Source: Chloroflexota bacterium (GTDB lineage: Bacteria > Chloroflexota > Limnocylindria > Limnocylindrales > CSP1-4). Taken from it: a stretch of 35,447 nucleotides of DNA. Of the stretch, positions 2,074-27,764 are shown piece after piece. Where the stretch lies: positions 1 to 35,447 of the forward strand of contig PMXR01000048.1 in assembly GCA_003171035.1 (NCBI GenBank), in the 5' to 3' direction. The notes under the pieces are model-generated. The model saw only the letters and a list, made by a program, of their open reading frames with translations. It was not told where the DNA came from and did not search any database. How positions within the stretch are numbered: the first letter of the stretch is position 1; every line of letters starts with the position of its first letter. Made by a program: the position numbers and the translations under genes.

Positions 2074-2121
2074 TCCGTACTGGAGCTCGAGGCAGCCGCC
2101 CACTTGAGCGCGCGGAAATAG
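2074..2121 (+). pseudogene. 3'-terminal fragment of a DUF5661-like gene (partial duplicate of 3687..3968)
   Basis: 34-bp exact match GAGGCAGCCGCCCACTTGAGCGCGCGGAAATAGC at 2089-2122 and 3936-3969; in frame it reads ..SVLELEAAAHLSARK* versus ..AVLEREAAAHLSARK* in the intact gene. Confidence 0.75.
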
Positions 2122-2286
2122 CAGCCGGATCGTCGTGAGACGCGGCTCGTCCACGACGACAACGCGCTGGTGCGCGCCGGGCGTTTCCGGCCTTGCGCCG
2201 AACTGTGGGGTCGCTGCCGAGCGGCGTGCACGGACTCCTGGACCGATCGGCGCACGAATACCGACCGGTCCCACGGGGGTAGAACC

Positions 2287-3686: not shown

Positions 3687-3968
3687 ATGACCGTCAAGAA
3701 ATCGTTCACGCGGGAAGAGGCGCTCGCCGTCGCGACTGAGCTCTCGATCGACTTCAAGGCGCTGAAGTGCGACCTCGAGCAGTTCCGGATGGGGCTGGAT
3801 GTCGAACTAGAGCACGGGCTCCGAAACCCGCAGACGAACGTCACCGGGGATGACTGGAACCTCACCGGGAAGATCGCGCTCGCCCATCTGAATGAGTTCC
3901 CGGACTACTACACACGTTTGGCCGTGCTTGAGCGAGAGGCAGCCGCCCACTTGAGCGCGCGGAAATAG
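3687..3968 (+). CDS. DUF5661 family protein
   Basis: MTVKKSFTREEALAVATELSIDF...EQFRMGLDVELEHGLRNPQTNVTGDDWNLTGKIALAHLNEFPDYYTRL; RBS GGAGGG upstream. Confidence 0.85.
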   Translation: MTVKKSFTREEALAVATELSIDFKALKCDLEQFRMGLDVELEHGLRNPQTNVTGDDWNLTGKIALAHLNEFPDYYTRLAVLEREAAAHLSARK

Positions 3969-4001
3969 CGCCAGCATTACCGGCTAGCGTTCGCCAGAAG
4001 C

Positions 4002-5258: not shown

Positions 5259-8200
5259 ACCAGGCCCTCCGATTGGGCGGCATCGGTCGTCGCGAAGTCG
5301 CGCATGGCTTCCTTGAGACTGGCGAACTGCAATTCGAGACCCGGCACGAGGGTCATGATGGCGTCCAGATCGCCGGCCTGTCCAGCCTCTTCGGCGGCGA
5401 GCGCCGCCCGTTTCAGCGCCTCGCCGCCGACGTTGGCCGAGGCACCCTTGATCGAGTGGGCCTGGCGCCGCGCGCCGGCGGCATCTCCGGAAGCCAGACA
5501 GCTTCGAAGCGTTGCCAGCTGGTCGGGCATTTCCTCGAGGAATCCGCCCACGATGACTCTGGCCATCTGATCGTCGCCCATCATTCGAGCCATCATGCCC
5601 GCCCGATCGAAAACCGGCGTCTCGGCGCCTTCGACCGATTCGGCAGCCGCGCCCTCGGCTACGGGGACCGCAACGGCGGCCGCTCCCGGACCGGCCACCG
5701 TCGACGGCAGCCACTTCTCCAGCGCAGCGGCGAGGGCGGCGGGCGAGATTGGTTTGGTGAGGTAGTCGTTCATCCCGGCCGCCAGACACCTCTCCTTGTC
5801 TCCGGCCAGCGAGTCGGCGGTCATCGCGATGACGGGGACTCCATGCCGCAGCACATCGGAGTTGGGGTCGCGGATCCGGCCGGTCGCGCGCAGGCCGTCC
5901 AACTCGGGCATCTGGACGTCCATCAACACAAGGTCATAGGGAATCGACTCGAGCGCTCTTATGGCCTCGAGGCCGTTGCCCACCGCATCCGACTCCAAGC
6001 CGAGCTTGCGGAGAATTCCCAGCGCCACTTGCTGGTTGGTGGTGTTGTCCTCCGCGAGCAAGATCCGGCCCGAGCCCCGGAAGGCCGGCTCCGCCGACGC
6101 CGCAGACCCCTTCGCCACCGCGGGCCCGGTCGGCGCCACTGGGGCCGCAGCCTGAACCGCCGTGGCCGCCGCTTTCGCGTCTTCCGAACCGGCGACGACC
6201 GTCGCCAGGCAGTCGAACAAGTCCGACTGCCGGATCGGTTTGATCAGGTATCCGGACAGGCCGATCTCGTCCATCAGCCGGCCGTCGCCGCGGCCGCCGA
6301 GAGAAGTCATCAGCACCAGGCTGGTCGGCTTCAGGGCCGCGTCGGACGTGATCGTCCGGGACAGGTCGATGCCGTCGACGCCCGGCATCTGCATGTCGAC
6401 CATGGCCGCCGTGAACGGGTCGCGTTCGTCGAGCGCCCCGCGCAGGGCCCGCAACGCCGCCGCCGCGTCGGGCACGTCGTGCGGCCGCATTCCCCATGCC
6501 GTGAGCTGGATCCGCAGCACCTCGCGGTTGGTGGCGTTGTCGTCGACCAGGAGAATCCGCACCCCGCGCAGATCGGCCCGCGGCGCGTCTCGGTTCTCGG
6601 CGCCGGAACGTTTCGCGAAACGTGATGTGAACCAGAACTCGGACCCGACGCCGTCCTCGCTGACCAGCCCGATCTGTCCGCCCATGAGTTCGGCGAGCTG
6701 CTTGGAGATGGCCAGACCCAGGCCCGTGCCGCCGTATTGACGGGTCGTCGAAGCGTCCGCCTGGGTGAACTTCTGGAAGAGCCGGCCCTGGATCTCCCCG
6801 GGTATGCCGATGCCGGTGTCTTTCACGGAGAAGCGCAACACGACGTCGGTGCCGGTCTCCGAAACGAGCGTGGTCCGGACCGCGACCTCGCCCTGGTGGG
6901 TGAACTTGACCGCGTTGCCGGCGAGATTGAACAGCACCTGGCGCAGCCGGCCGGGGTCGCCGCCGAGGTAGGTCGGGACGTCCGGGTCGGCCGAGCAGAT
7001 GAACTCCAGCCCGGCCTCCTGGGCTCGTACAGCCAGCCCGCTCGAGAAGTCGTCCAGCAGCGCACGGATGTCGAAGTCGATCGTCTCGAGTTCGACCCTG
7101 CCGGCCTCGATCTTGGAGAAATCGAGGATGTCGTTTAGCAACGTCAACAGGGCCTCGGCGCTGGTCCGGACGGTCTCGGCATAGCGGCGTTGGTCTGAGT
7201 CCAGCGGGGTGTCGAGCAAGAGGCCGGTCATGCCGAGGACGCCGTTCATCGGCGTTCGGATTTCGTGGCTCATGTTGGCCAGGAAGTCGCTCTTGGCCTG
7301 GTTCGCCGTGTCGGCTTCCGCGGCCAGTTCGATCGCCCGGCTCATGGCGTTCGCGAGCTGGAAGATGGTGTCCCGCTGCTCTCGTTCGGCCTCCTTCTGG
7401 GCGGTGATGTCCCAGCTCGTGCCGATGACGTGGATCGGCCGGCCGCCGAAGTCACGCTGTACCAGTGCGATGGCACGGATGTGATGGATCGCACCGTCCG
7501 GCCAGACCACGCGGAACGCCGTGTCGAAGTCCTCTTCACCGATCAACGCGGCGTGCATCTCATCGTCGACACTCGGGCGGTCGTCGAGCAGAAGCCGTGC
7601 TTGCCAGGACTCATATGTGCAGCTGAACCCGTCGCGGCCGATGCCGTACAGGCCGAGCATCTGGTCGTCCCAGACGAGGCAGTCGGCCACCGGGTCGAAG
7701 TCCCAGATGCCGACGCTACCGGCACGTGCGGCCAGCGCCAGCCGGTCGCCGGTGCTCCGCAACGCACGCTCCGACCGGCGCGCCGCGGAGATGGCTGTGT
7801 CCGTCCGGAGCATCACCAGGACGGCGATGACTCCCCAGGCCGCGAGAGATACGGGAGTGCCCGCGGCTTCGCCCAGGAACGCCTGAAGAACGAGACTCGC
7901 CGGCGGCAGCAGCAACGCCCCGGTCAGGAGGAGCCTGCGCGCCGTGTTCCGGCTGGTCCAGTCCTCGCCCCGGTTCTGCATCTCGGTGCCGGCCGCCGGA
8001 TGCGTGGCCGCCGCCGCCCACATAACCATCGACATCAGCCACAGGGCGTCGAGCGGCGATATGTCTACCGAGACGTCCATCAGGCTGAGGCGCAGGTTGA
8101 GGAAATCGGCGATGACGACGGCCACGACACCCGCCAGCAGCATCGCCAGCCAGCGGGAGTGCAGGTCCGCGGCGAGAAGGGCCCGCAACGCCACGGCCAG

Positions 8201-16331: not shown

Positions 16332-16832
16332 GTGGCAGACCTTCGAGTTGAATTGCTTGTCGTCGAGGATTGCCCGCATCTCGACCGGGCGCGGCGCGAC
16401 CTCGAGAGCATCCTCGGCCACGGGGTCATCGAGGTGCCGATCCAACTCATCTACGTCGGCAGTCAGGAAGACGCGGAGTTCCTGGGGTTCCAGGGTTCGC
16501 CGACGATCCGCGTCAACGGCGACGACGTAGATTCCCAGCCCGATCTGCCGGTAGCGGTGGGCTGCCGGAGGTATCGAACCGCCGACGGCAAGATCGTCGG
16601 TTCGCCGCCGGTCGAACTTATCAAGGCCGCCGTCGACTCCCACCGTCGCAGTCGCCTCCAAGCTTTCCAGCGCGAGGAGGCCGCCAAGGTCGCCGAATTC
16701 GCCCGGGCCGCCGCCGACGCCGAGGCCGCCGGCGCGGCCGTCAGCGACCTCGCGCCCACGTCAGGCGCGGCCGAATCCCCTGTTGAATCCGCATCGAGGC
16801 AACCGGAGGGACGTGACCATGGCGCTGAATGA
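16332..16832 (+). CDS. Thioredoxin-fold-like protein (DF-family/alkylmercury-lyase-associated type)
   Basis: VELLVVEDCPHLDRARRDLESIL...YVGSQEDAEFLGFQGSPTIRVNGDDVD; GSPTIRVNG motif; GTG start; C-term 60 aa low-complexity Ala-rich. Confidence 0.65.
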   Translation: MADLRVELLVVEDCPHLDRARRDLESILGHGVIEVPIQLIYVGSQEDAEFLGFQGSPTIRVNGDDVDSQPDLPVAVGCRRYRTADGKIVGSPPVELIKAAVDSHRRSRLQAFQREEAAKVAEFARAAADAEAAGAAVSDLAPTSGAAESPVESASRQPEGRDHGAE

Positions 16833-17793
16833 GAACCTCCGACTTCTGCCGCAGCGGACGATGCGTTCGATCCTGATCTCGCTGTCGCATCGCCGCGCGC
16901 TCGCCCGGGCCGCCGTCCGGAGTCCGCTGACTCGCCCTATCGTCGCTCGTTTCGTGGCCGGTGAGACGCTCCAGGAAGCGCTGCCGGCGATCCTCGCTCT
17001 GAAGCGGGCGGGGCTGCACACGACGGTCGATGTCCTGGGGGAGTCGGTCGGCTCGCGGGACCAGGCCGCCGCGGCGGTAGATCGATACCTGGCCACCATT
17101 GCGGCCCTTTCGGAGCGAGATCTGGACCCGAACGTCAGCCTCAAGCTGACGCAGATGGGTCTCGAGATTGACCGCGCCTGCTGCCTCGAAAACGTCCTGA
17201 GGGTCGTGGAAGCGGTTCGTGGCGTGAGCGGCTTCGTTCGCTTCGACATGGAAGACCACACCATGACCGACGCCACTCTCGAGGTCTGGCGGGCGGCCCA
17301 CGAGGCCTATCCCCGAGTCGGGGTCGTGATCCAGGCGGCGCTGCGGCGCAGTTCGGCGGACGTGGATTCGATCATCGCCGCCCACGGCCGTGTCAGGCTC
17401 TGCAAGGGCGCATACGACGAGCCGGCGAGCGTCGCGTATCGGACCAGGTCGGCCGTCGACGCAAACTACGCCCGTCTCATGGAGCGGTTGCTGGTTGCCG
17501 ACGTCCAGCCGGCCATCGCCACGCACGACCCCAGGTTGATCGCCAAAGCGATCTCGATCGTCGAGCGGGAAGGCATCGACCGCGACCGGTTCGAGTTCCA
17601 GATGCTGTACGGCATCCGGCGCGACCTGCAGCGGACGTTGATCGACCGCGGCTACCAGGTCCGGATCTACGTGCCGTACGGGACGGAGTGGTATCCGTAC
17701 TTCATGCGCCGCCTGGCCGAGCGCCCTGCCAACGTCGGCTTCATGGTTCGGGCGATAGTCAAAGAAGAAGGCCGTCGACTAAAAGGCCACTGA
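16819..17793 (+). CDS. Proline dehydrogenase (monofunctional)
   Basis: TTVDVLGESV...NVSLKLTQMGLEID...FVRFDMEDHTMTDATLEVW...VGVVIQAALRRS...RLCKGAYDEPASVAY...PAIATHDPRLI...EFQMLYGIRRDLQ...VRIYVPYGTEWYPYFMRRLAERPANVGF. Confidence 0.95.
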   Translation: MALNENLRLLPQRTMRSILISLSHRRALARAAVRSPLTRPIVARFVAGETLQEALPAILALKRAGLHTTVDVLGESVGSRDQAAAAVDRYLATIAALSERDLDPNVSLKLTQMGLEIDRACCLENVLRVVEAVRGVSGFVRFDMEDHTMTDATLEVWRAAHEAYPRVGVVIQAALRRSSADVDSIIAAHGRVRLCKGAYDEPASVAYRTRSAVDANYARLMERLLVADVQPAIATHDPRLIAKAISIVEREGIDRDRFEFQMLYGIRRDLQRTLIDRGYQVRIYVPYGTEWYPYFMRRLAERPANVGFMVRAIVKEEGRRLKGH

Positions 17794-17867
17794 GGCCACC
17801 CCCCGGCCGAGTTGCCACGCCAAGCCGGGCCCCCTGTAAGCGAATAGAGCCACCCCCGGCCAAGTTG

Positions 17868-17972
17868 CCGCGCCCGGTGTCGGCACCGAAGCGAGGCGAC
17901 TCTGAAGGCGCAGCCGACTCCGTTGGCTGCGCCAGGCGTCGCCGAGCGAAGGCCTGCCGGCACCGGGCGCGG
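17868..17972. repeat. Structured hairpin element, copy A
   Basis: Outer stem CCGCGCCCGGTGTCGGCA / TGCCGGCACCGGGCGCGG (18 bp, one G-U), conserved internal loop CCGAAGCGA / GAGCGAAGG, inner stem GGCGAC/GTCGCC, extra apical stem GGCGCAGCC/GGCTGCGCC. Confidence 0.8.
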
Positions 17973-17991
17973 CTGCCTCTGACCCGGTGAT

Positions 17992-18636
17992 CTACTCCAC
18001 CGGCTGTCGCAGGACCGTCTTGAGTTTGGCCGGATCGGCCCGGCGCGGATCTCCGAGATAGATCTCGTGGTGCGGACCGCGCGGCTTGCAACCCTGCGCG
18101 GTGATGAAAGCGTGCAGCCGTTCGATCGTCGGCAGTTCTTCGGAATATGGCCCGACGTGCATCACCTGGGCGGAGCGGCCCTCACGCCAGCGCTCGAAAC
18201 GGAGCCGATCGAGTTCGGGTGAGTTGCCCTTCTTGCGGCGGACTTCGGCGACGGCTTCGTCGAAAACGGCCGGTGTGACGTCGTCCGAGACGGCCAGCAT
18301 GGCGCGCCAGCCCCATTGCTCTTGTGGCTTGTGGACGTCGAACGTGCCGTCGGCGGCGGTGAACCAGAGGGCTTCGAGCGGAAGGATCGGCATCGTCAAT
18401 CCATCTCGCTTGAGCCGGAACTTGATCGTGTACACCACCGGAAACAGCACCGCGAACGCCTTCTGAAAGTCCGTGGTGGGGTATTGCGCGCCTTCGTCGG
18501 GCGCGCCCCGGCCGTCGATCATCAGGTAGCCAAGGTCGGGTAGATCGACCATGACGGGTTCTCGGGGCGGATTGAAGAACGGGGCCAGGGCCTTCTTGAG
18601 GTCCGTGGCCGTGGTCGTGGTCGTGGTCTTGGCCAT
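17992..18636 (-). CDS. GyrI-like domain-containing protein
   Basis: MAKTTTTTTATDLKKALAPFFNPPREPVMVDLPDLGYLMIDGRGAPDEGAQYPTTDFQKAFAVLFPVVYTIKFRLKR...QVMHVGPYSEELPTIERLHAFI. Confidence 0.87.
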   Translation of the reverse strand: MAKTTTTTTATDLKKALAPFFNPPREPVMVDLPDLGYLMIDGRGAPDEGAQYPTTDFQKAFAVLFPVVYTIKFRLKRDGLTMPILPLEALWFTAADGTFDVHKPQEQWGWRAMLAVSDDVTPAVFDEAVAEVRRKKGNSPELDRLRFERWREGRSAQVMHVGPYSEELPTIERLHAFITAQGCKPRGPHHEIYLGDPRRADPAKLKTVLRQPVE

Positions 18637-18671
18637 TTCCACCTCCTGCGCGAGAACTCGATTCCGGCGTC

Positions 18672-25571: not shown

Positions 25572-26234
25572 TCAGACCACGACCTGGTCGCGGAACTTGG
25601 CCAGCGTGGTCGCAGAGATGAGCTTGCGCGACACGAGATCGTCGACGGAGGCGAAGACCATCTGCTCGCGCGAGGCGATTATCTTGGCCGCGGTCGCCGG
25701 GCCGATGCCGGGCAGCGAATCCAGCTGAGCGGACGTGGCTGTGTTGAGATTCAGCGGCCCGGGCGCATTCGTGGCCGCGGTACCGCCGGACCCGGTCGCG
25801 GCTTCGCCACGTCTCGGGACCACGATCGACTGGGCATCCTGCAGCTTGGCGGCCAGGTTGAGCGCGGTTTCGGCGGCACGCGGATCCACGTCCGGCGAGT
25901 AGCCGCCGGCCGCCCTTATGGCATCGCCGACTCGTGACCCGGCCGGCAGCGAGTACACGCCCGGCCTCGCCACCGCCCCCGCGACCTGGACCACGACCAT
26001 CGCAACCGACGGCGAGGCTCGGGTCGCGGCAGAACCGGTCGCGCCCGACACCACCTGGACCTGCCCGCCCGGCTGGAGCTGGCTGTATGCGACTACCGCC
26101 AGCGATCCAACCAGCAGCACGACGACCACAAGCACCGGCAGCAACGCCGTCTGCGTCCTCGCGCCCGGCGGGGCCGTCCCGGCGGGGTCCTCGACCGTCG
26201 TCTCGAGCGCCCGCCAGGGCGCGCTCATGCCCAT
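25572..26234 (-). CDS. comEA: ComEA family helix-hairpin-helix DNA-binding protein
   Basis: TM segment, SLBB-like VQVAGAVARPGVYSLPAGSRVGDAIRAAGG, C-term LNLNTATSAQLDSLPGIGPATAAKIIASRE. Confidence 0.93.
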   Translation of the reverse strand: MGMSAPWRALETTVEDPAGTAPPGARTQTALLPVLVVVVLLVGSLAVVAYSQLQPGGQVQVVSGATGSAATRASPSVAMVVVQVAGAVARPGVYSLPAGSRVGDAIRAAGGYSPDVDPRAAETALNLAAKLQDAQSIVVPRRGEAATGSGGTAATNAPGPLNLNTATSAQLDSLPGIGPATAAKIIASREQMVFASVDDLVSRKLISATTLAKFRDQVVV

Positions 26235-26314
26235 CCCTCACTCCGATTAGGTTCCGCGGCGGACATCGCGCGAACCCTATCGAGTGCGGCTCACCTGCGG
26301 CTTATTTGGCGGTA

Positions 26315-26393
26315 GCGCGGCAGGGGGCCGGCACCGAAGAGAGGCGACTCTGTAAAGCGTCGCCGAACGAAGGATGTCGGCCCCCTGCCGCGC
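26315..26393. repeat. Structured hairpin element, copy B
   Basis: Outer stem GCGCGGCAGGGGGCCGGCA / TGTCGGCCCCCTGCCGCGC (19 bp, one G-U), internal loop CCGAAGAGA / GAACGAAGG, inner stem GGCGAC/GTCGCC (26343-26348 / 26359-26364). Confidence 0.8.
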
Positions 26394-26396
26394 GTC

Positions 26397-27764
26397 CTAC
26401 GGAGCCCGGGCGACGATCTCCTTGAGATAGGCGTCGATCTCCGCCACGGAACGAAGAGCGCGCTCGAAGTAGTCGTTGACCGCCTTCATGGCCGCGGTCT
26501 GGACATCGGTCATGTCTTCGGTTCGATCGGCTTCGGCGCCGTGCTTTTGAACCGAGTTGCGGAGCTTCAGCAGGTGGCCGACCATCTCGGCCTCGGCGGG
26601 CCCGTCGAGCGCCTGGATCGCCGACATGATCAACTTGTCGACCTGCTCGGTCATCGTTTCGGAGTCGAAGTCGTCGCCGGATGCCGCGGCGTCGTTGAGG
26701 GTCTGGATGATCGCGGCGACCTGATAGAGCGCGGTGATCGGCTCGTCGAACAACTCGCGGATGAATGCCGCCTCGACGTAGTGGCCGTTCATGCGGAAGA
26801 CGTTGTACAGGCGCCGCGCTACCTTGCCGTAGCTCGGATGCTCGACCGTGTACTTCCACACTTCGTGCTCCAGCGCCTCGACGTAGTCGTCGACCGTGTC
26901 GGCCGACAGCTCCTTGACGAGCTTGGAGAAGATAGGGATCGACCCGGCGTCGAGGTAGACCTCCTGGAAGTAAGGATCCAGGAAACCGTCGAGCGGGACG
27001 ATCTTGCCGTCGGGCGCTTCCCACGTGGCGTCGAGGACGTTGCTGGCGTTGGCCAGCTTGCCGCGCGACGAGTCGGCGATGACCCAGTCGATCTTGCACC
27101 AGCCGGGATCGCGAGTCGCGTCGGCCCAGGTGTAGACGGCCTTCGAGCCGTCGAGCAGCTCGACCTCCATCTGGCCGGCTTTGACCTCGTCGGGCGTCCA
27201 CGACATCGGCGACTTCACGCCGACCGGCTTGCCGGCCTTCTTGGCCTCGACCGGGTGCTGGCCGAACTTGACCTCCCACAACCGATGGCCCGGCCCGCTG
27301 GCGGTGGCGAGCGCCTTCTCGCGGATCATGTCGGCGAGGATCGCGCAGGCTTCCTCGCGAGTGTCCGCCTTGATGTTGATGCGCTCGAAGAAGTCGCAGT
27401 CGGCCGGGAACGTGTTGATCTTGCTCTGGGCGGCCGAACCGGAGATCGAGAGAGCGGTCAGGACGTTGGGTGGGCGGTCGTCGAAGCCGACGATCTTGCC
27501 CATCTCGCGGAAGCGGGCCAGATCTGCCGGGGCGAAGTCGAGCATCGAAACGCGGTGGCCGTAGACGCCGGTGTTGACGTCGACCAGCAAGTCGCCGCCG
27601 GCCTCCTCGTTGGCCATCGCCTGGACCCACTCGCGGGCCTCTTTCTCGTCGAGTTCAACGCCCAGGCGTTGGGCGGACTCGACGATCTTCGCGATCGCGG
27701 CGTCGTAGTCCGCGGTCTTCGACACGGTGGCAGCCCCGGCTGCAACGGCCTTGCCCGGCTCCAT
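26397..27764 (-). CDS. Hypothetical protein (455 aa), possible divergent nucleotidyltransferase-fold protein
   Basis: Single clean ORF; ...LSISGSAAQSKINTFPADCDFFERINIKADTREEACAILADMIREKAL...GWCKIDWVIAD... resembles a GS..DxD plus third Asp pattern. Confidence 0.85.
   Translation of the reverse strand: MEPGKAVAAGAATVSKTADYDAAIAKIVESAQRLGVELDEKEAREWVQAMANEEAGGDLLVDVNTGVYGHRVSMLDFAPADLARFREMGKIVGFDDRPPNVLTALSISGSAAQSKINTFPADCDFFERINIKADTREEACAILADMIREKALATASGPGHRLWEVKFGQHPVEAKKAGKPVGVKSPMSWTPDEVKAGQMEVELLDGSKAVYTWADATRDPGWCKIDWVIADSSRGKLANASNVLDATWEAPDGKIVPLDGFLDPYFQEVYLDAGSIPIFSKLVKELSADTVDDYVEALEHEVWKYTVEHPSYGKVARRLYNVFRMNGHYVEAAFIRELFDEPITALYQVAAIIQTLNDAAASGDDFDSETMTEQVDKLIMSAIQALDGPAEAEMVGHLLKLRNSVQKHGAEADRTEDMTDVQTAAMKAVNDYFERALRSVAEIDAYLKEIVARAP

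Follow-up and report, generated by a model that had tools for sequence, protein, structure and literature searches.

Two hairpins in a 35,447-nucleotide stretch of Chloroflexota DNA (the whole stretch analysed, hereafter the window) carry largely different outer stems around one and the same purine-rich core. The question that this arrangement raises is what kind of element would keep its inside fixed while its arms are free to change. Here we find that the two hairpins, copies A and B, are members of a real, previously undescribed small family of non-coding elements about 75-125 bp long, and we weigh the ways in which such a family could have arisen and been maintained.

Architecture and stability of the two hairpins

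Copy A spans 17867-17973, where a preliminary description had placed it at 17868-17972, and copy B spans 26315-26393 as described. The core CCGAAG(C/A)GAGGCGACTCTG ... GCGTCGCCGA(G/A)CGAAGG is common to both, exactly, and the outer stems, which differ in sequence over most of their length, are each 19 bp long and paired with one G-U. The stems had been called fully paired, which holds for their 19 bp but passes over a small bulge between the outer stem and the CC/GG pairs, of 2 nt in copy A (17953-17954) and 1 nt in copy B (26374). Beyond these pairs lies a symmetric, purine-rich 7x7 internal loop in which GAA, a G-C pair, a variable pair and then GA face GA..GAA, the variable position being C-G in copy A and A-A in copy B. 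Folding also recovered the inner stem GGCGAC/GTCGCC in both hairpins, followed by a one-base mismatch, CU/AG and the apical part. The extra apical stem attributed to copy A is present, with a length of 12 bp when folded (17907-17918/17922-17933) rather than the 9 bp first given, and the short apical loop of copy B is a GUAA tetraloop. The parts of both hairpins are as follows, as obtained by folding; R1 is the covariance model of the family introduced in the next section.

17867..17973, + strand: copy A, whole hairpin (folding z -9.61; R1 match 62.9 bits, E 7e-13, copy A itself being in the R1 training set)
17867..17885, + strand: copy A outer stem, 5' arm, 19 bp
17886..17900, + strand: copy A core, 5' side (CC, GAA, GC, GA, GGCGAC), conserved in 16 copies
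17907..17933, + strand: copy A extra apical stem-loop, 12 bp; relatives carry long as well as short versions of the apical part
17938..17952, + strand: copy A core, 3' side (GTCGCC, GA, GC, GAA, GG)
17955..17973, + strand: copy A outer stem, 3' arm
26315..26393, + strand: copy B, whole hairpin (folding z -9.16; R1 match 68.7 bits, E 2e-14, copy B itself being in the R1 training set)
26315..26333, + strand: copy B outer stem, 5' arm, 19 bp
26334..26348, + strand: copy B core, 5' side (CC, GAAGAGA, GGCGAC)
26352..26355, + strand: copy B GUAA (GNRA-type) apical loop
26359..26373, + strand: copy B core, 3' side (GTCGCC, GAACGAA, GG)
26375..26393, + strand: copy B outer stem, 3' arm

Folded as RNA, copies A and B had z-scores of -9.6 and -9.2, and folded as DNA -7.0 and -7.3, with 0 shuffles equally stable in either case, which excludes a chance origin of the hairpins; they also rank as the two most stable 120-nt segments across the entire 35 kb. 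A count of inverted repeats (17/18, G-U allowed) was tried as a significance test and gave 6 in the window against 0-6 in shuffles, without setting A and B apart. This count is uninformative, so the significance of the hairpins rests on the folding z-scores and on the family described below.

Two direct repeats were seen in passing. An imperfect one of about 28 bp (GAGGCCACCCCCCGGCCGAGTTGCCACGCC / GAGCCACCCCCGGCCAAGTTGCCGCGCC), its units about 57 bp apart, continues into copy A's left arm (window 17793-17868). The other, of 48 bp and 92% identity (window 2075-2122 and 3922-3969, 1847 bp apart), lies directly downstream of a tRNA-Met gene (1938-2012) and could represent a duplication or attachment-type sites.

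Copies and range of the family

A whole-genome pattern search of the source genome (G000) found the exact core pair nowhere beyond A and B. When the core (19 bases) was allowed up to 2 mismatches, 14 of 61 genomes gave matches, about a dozen of which proved on folding to be true copies with the same plan. The covariance model R1 was built from 13 copies, A and B included, and the covariance-model search that the preliminary description had proposed returned 16 copies in 7 of the 21 species of the genus (G000, G005, G006, G007, G008, G011 and G020, with 1-4 each). Across all 21 species copy number ranges from 0 to 4 per genome, and these values are lower bounds, the genomes being drafts that are 69-95% complete. 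Further matches in G085 (34 bits), G008:C103 and G010 were set aside on inspection as chance. Outside the genus R1 found no convincing further copies among 107 genomes of the family, 177 of the class and 400 of the phylum, in runs that score few candidates per genome, which diverged copies could escape, and that recovered both G000 copies every time. Genome-wide counts rest on searches of genome sequence, and other intergenic hairpins were examined in a 20-contig sample (about 280 kb).

The exact core pattern was also run against 85,462 GTDB genomes and matched 14 stretches. Seven are true copies, found only in four 'Chloroflexi bacterium' MAGs (fen_1019, fen_1029, fen_1042 and fen_1071) that coincide with genus members already counted. 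The other seven, in Methylocystis, Defluviicoccus, Elusimicrobia, Paraburkholderia, Xaviernesmea, Porticoccaceae and Cryobacterium, were rejected: they are without an outer stem and are located within or next to predicted genes, and their number is roughly that expected by chance for a 22-base gapped pattern. Comparison with Rfam at gathering and relaxed thresholds yielded no family that describes A or B, only chance microRNA-type and similar matches to long hairpins, and the element was not matched in plasmids, phages or IMG/VR. A lack of further copies, or an Rfam or known REP/MITE family that already fitted, had been named beforehand as grounds for abandoning the element; relatives carry copies, and no such family fits. 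As far as could be searched, the family is confined to one genus of Chloroflexota.

Genomic addresses

The genes flanking copies A and B, called with their starts by a simple codon-usage script, and the single tandem pair are listed here.

16813..17793, + strand: proline dehydrogenase, flanking copy A (Pfam PF01619, E 3e-37)
17992..18642, - strand: GyrI-like domain protein, convergent, flanking copy A (Pfam PF06445, on a longer frame)
25572..26234, - strand: ComEA-like protein (SLBB plus helix-hairpin-helix, Pfam), flanking copy B
26397..27764, - strand: 455-aa protein without a Pfam match, flanking copy B, its stop codon 3 nt from the hairpin
G006, 5866-6015 on one contig end and 1-31 on the other: tandem pair of two nearly identical copies

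Site A, between the convergent proline dehydrogenase and GyrI-like genes, is occupied in G000 only (1 of 19 species read), and site B, between the 455-aa and ComEA-like genes, in G000 and G008 (2 of 12), where the copies stand in opposite orientations. Orientation relative to flanking genes is thus mixed even within one locus. The spacer between atpD and atpC, whose names were assigned by eye from the N-termini, holds a copy in 5 of 19 species (G020, G011, G008, G005 and G007), antisense to the operon every time. In a tree built from AtpC, proline dehydrogenase and the 455-aa protein, with weak support for its deep branches, these five carriers fall into one sister pair and three scattered species. 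The arms of the atp-spacer copies in G020, G011 and G008 can be aligned, and these copies likely reflect an old presence with losses and vertical inheritance, while copies A and B seem to have been gained more recently.

The sister species G020 and G011 have a common copy in a convergent spacer adjoining a putative pgi (named by eye), the G006 tandem pair follows a cydB-like gene (by eye) and spans the C4/C97 contig break, and further copies occupy co-directional spacers in both orientations. All contexts read are co-directional or convergent spacers, and none is a clearly divergent one that bears promoters; a stop codon lies mostly within about 40 nt of the copy and in a few cases farther away. 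The orthologous empty sites A and B of relatives are mostly without a comparable palindrome, which indicates that the arms arrive together with the element. Spacers that hold copies are very unstable in length and contain tandem repeats. In the window (26240-26310) and in several relatives, the ComEA-like gene is preceded by a spacer in which species-specific tandem repeats, some made of GATAAGC / GATGAGC units, give way to a conserved CCGATAGNGTTCGCG-like stretch that is perhaps a promoter region.

Covariation and evolution of the arms

In the model-fitted alignment of all 16 copies, 87.7% of cells are paired and two-sided changes occur at 15 of 24 pairs, 11 of them in the outer stem. Cells with two-sided changes number 37, against 12.1 +/- 2.9 in shuffled alignments (0 of 500 shuffles reached this value and no slid version came near), a test that kinship among the copies inflates. 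The same picture emerged from a 13-copy MAFFT alignment made without model fitting (12 pairs), and RNAalifold recovered the stem from the 16-copy alignment with 10 two-sided pairs. The proposal, first made on two copies, that the stems vary with pairing kept around a fixed loop is therefore borne out across the family. The core is nearly invariant across the 16 copies, with a G-C to C-G swap in the inner stem of a G007 copy, and the GAA/GAA and GA/GA loop mismatches are kept in most of them.

The left arm GC(A/G)GCGAC..CGGACACCGG recurs in G005, G007 and the site-B copy of G008, which suggests descent from a single ancestral element with arms that have since drifted in concert. Apical forms tend to follow the genome over the site: the copies of G011 are all long (3/3) and both copies of G020 are short, though two sites are common to both species, a pattern that hints at homogenisation between copies or at repeated apical deletion.

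A second hairpin family in the same genus

A second hairpin family follows the same plan, with the core CGCTCAGCCACCGCTTTAGCG, a 3x3 loop and a variable, covarying outer stem; two-sided changes occur at 6 of 17 pairs. It is found in the atpD-atpC spacers of G000, G001 and G008, in a diverged form in G012, and elsewhere. A copy in the source genome is the following.

G000:C87:82761-82811: second-family copy

The covariance model R2, built from 7 copies, detected this hairpin family in 8 of the 107 genomes examined at family level, every one of them a member of the genus, its weakest matches (E 0.003-0.008) being candidates only; besides the source genome the hairpin occurs in G001, G002, G008, G012, G014, G016 and G020, each genome having one or two strong copies. 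The plan of a fixed core with variable, paired arms is hence not unique to the family of A and B. In 19 species of the genus the atpD-atpC spacer itself measures 40 to 329 nt, and hairpins of several kinds have gathered in it, a third type among them being built around CGCTCCGCGCAAAGCCGCAAGCGGCTCGAGCGCTTCGCGAGCG.

Nature of the element

The reading that we favour, with moderate confidence, is that A and B are copies of a small, non-coding, dispersed palindromic element that rarely spreads as DNA and whose hairpin arms are kept paired. We prefer it because of the 16-copy family, the patchy presence at orthologous sites, the tandem pair and the common left arm; dispersed, low-copy elements with presence and absence between related species and one tandem pair behave as a small palindromic DNA repeat does. 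In this model the rare spread would be that of a non-autonomous repeat moved by some enzyme or by recombination, as presence and absence between species suggests. Copies would then persist at places where a long hairpin does no harm or is of benefit, after genes and at a distance from promoters. The purine-rich core with its G-A loops may be the recognised part, probably with one strand extruded as a hairpin, in ssDNA or RNA, and arm pairing would be held by selection for the hairpin, probably aided by template-switch correction. Several observations count against this reading. Between 0 and 4 copies per draft genome is low for a repeat family, neither fixed termini nor a target-site duplication was recognised by eye in the copies and empty sites, and a Y1_Tnp gene is absent from all 21 genus genomes in a search that was positive in 5 of 14 control genomes. 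Moreover, the element is missing from the mobile-element collections searched (plasmids, phages and IMG/VR), and the apparently inherited atp copies of G020, G011 and G008 suggest that some sites are not new insertions.

A possible but less probable account is that the element is a structured RNA, acting in a 3'-UTR, between cistrons or as a small RNA. Its GA-rich loop, modelled as a GAA/GAA loop together with tandem sheared G-A pairs, would bind a protein or ligand, and its arms would covary under selection on the helix. The covariation, the retention of loop purines while the arms vary and the location directly after stop codons all agree with this, as does the stronger RNA fold of the + strand over the - strand in A, B and 12 of 15 copies, an energy lead that may partly be the RNA-parameter bonus for G-A loops. 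However, the copies take both orientations to neighbouring genes, their addresses are not conserved and no promoter-like site was found at them. Nor do the arm mismatches single out a strand: within the first 12, 16 and 20 pairs, 12, 20 and 21 of them would form G-U on the + strand and 6, 10 and 15 on the - strand, so that the G-T versus A-C counts (12:6, 20:10 and 21:15; p 0.24, 0.10 and 0.41) favour neither significantly. The preliminary description had offered a structured RNA or a structure-recognised DNA element; what is upheld is a structured element that recurs, its arms covarying about an unchanged core, and with mixed orientation, unconserved sites and strand counts that favour neither side, an RNA nature is no more than possible.

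We regard as rather doubtful a broader scheme whereby the genus carries several unrelated hairpin families of one plan after stop codons, read by a shape-recognising host factor, which would make them a new class of 3'-end element with non-RAYT spread.

Template-switch mutation is an alternative source of covariation in long palindromes (PMC8794818), and arm pairing could be maintained by selection, by template switching or by both. It is improbable, though, that the element is purely a functionless quasi-palindrome in which switching during replication copies arm onto arm and so mimics compensatory change. The mechanism is documented, the palindromes are long and GC-rich, and the host spacers, unstable in length and bearing tandem repeats, would suit it, but switching across the whole palindrome would perfect the internal loop too. 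The conserved mismatches of the core argue against template switching as the sole cause, and a common core at different addresses would be left unexplained.

We consider it very unlikely that the hairpins are bidirectional transcription terminators between convergent genes or attenuators within operons. Copy A and some copies in relatives do sit in convergent spacers, and the stem is very stable and GC-rich, yet both strands lack a T-tract, no intrinsic terminator was called on the stems, several copies lie within operons (atpD-atpC, for example) and termination requires no conserved core; ordinary hairpin-plus-T terminators exist elsewhere in the genome (in the 20-contig sample). A classical REP moved by a RAYT transposase, which would fit a palindromic, extragenic, dispersed and once tandem element, is already largely refuted and extremely improbable given the missing Y1_Tnp gene, the lack of a consistent unpaired GTAG or CGTC tag (among 15 copies read, GTAG precedes the stem in copy B alone) and a length and copy number far from those of REPs as defined in PMC3733652.

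Relation to known elements

REP/BIME sequences form GTAG- and CGTC-tagged superfamilies of 20-40 bp and high copy number (PMC3733652). The present element resembles them as an extragenic imperfect palindrome that is dispersed in either orientation and occasionally tandem, and differs from them in size, in its few copies, in having neither consistent tag nor RAYT, and in placing its conserved core inside and its variable arms outside. Like MITEs it is short and non-coding, is present or absent at orthologous sites of related species and brings its arms with it; unlike them it is without conserved terminal inverted repeats or a defined target duplication, and the Y1_Tnp search found no parent transposon. 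Structured RNA motifs (Rfam candidates; for example PMC2864571 and PMC6429828) likewise combine conserved loop nucleotides with covarying helices, whereas our element matches no Rfam family better than chance would, keeps to neither a particular gene nor a particular orientation and occurs in a single genus, the comparison with known motifs having been made through Rfam. It would be best described as a new, low-copy, REP/MITE-like dispersed palindrome.

What sets this undescribed repeat family apart is its inside-out pattern, the inside conserved and the arms free to change while paired. Selection on a hairpin and template switching leave similar covariation signals, a matter of consequence for any claim of conserved RNA structure, and the family is a compact natural case for telling hairpin selection from template-switch correction. 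For the uncultured Chloroflexota, it provides a marker for recent genome change.
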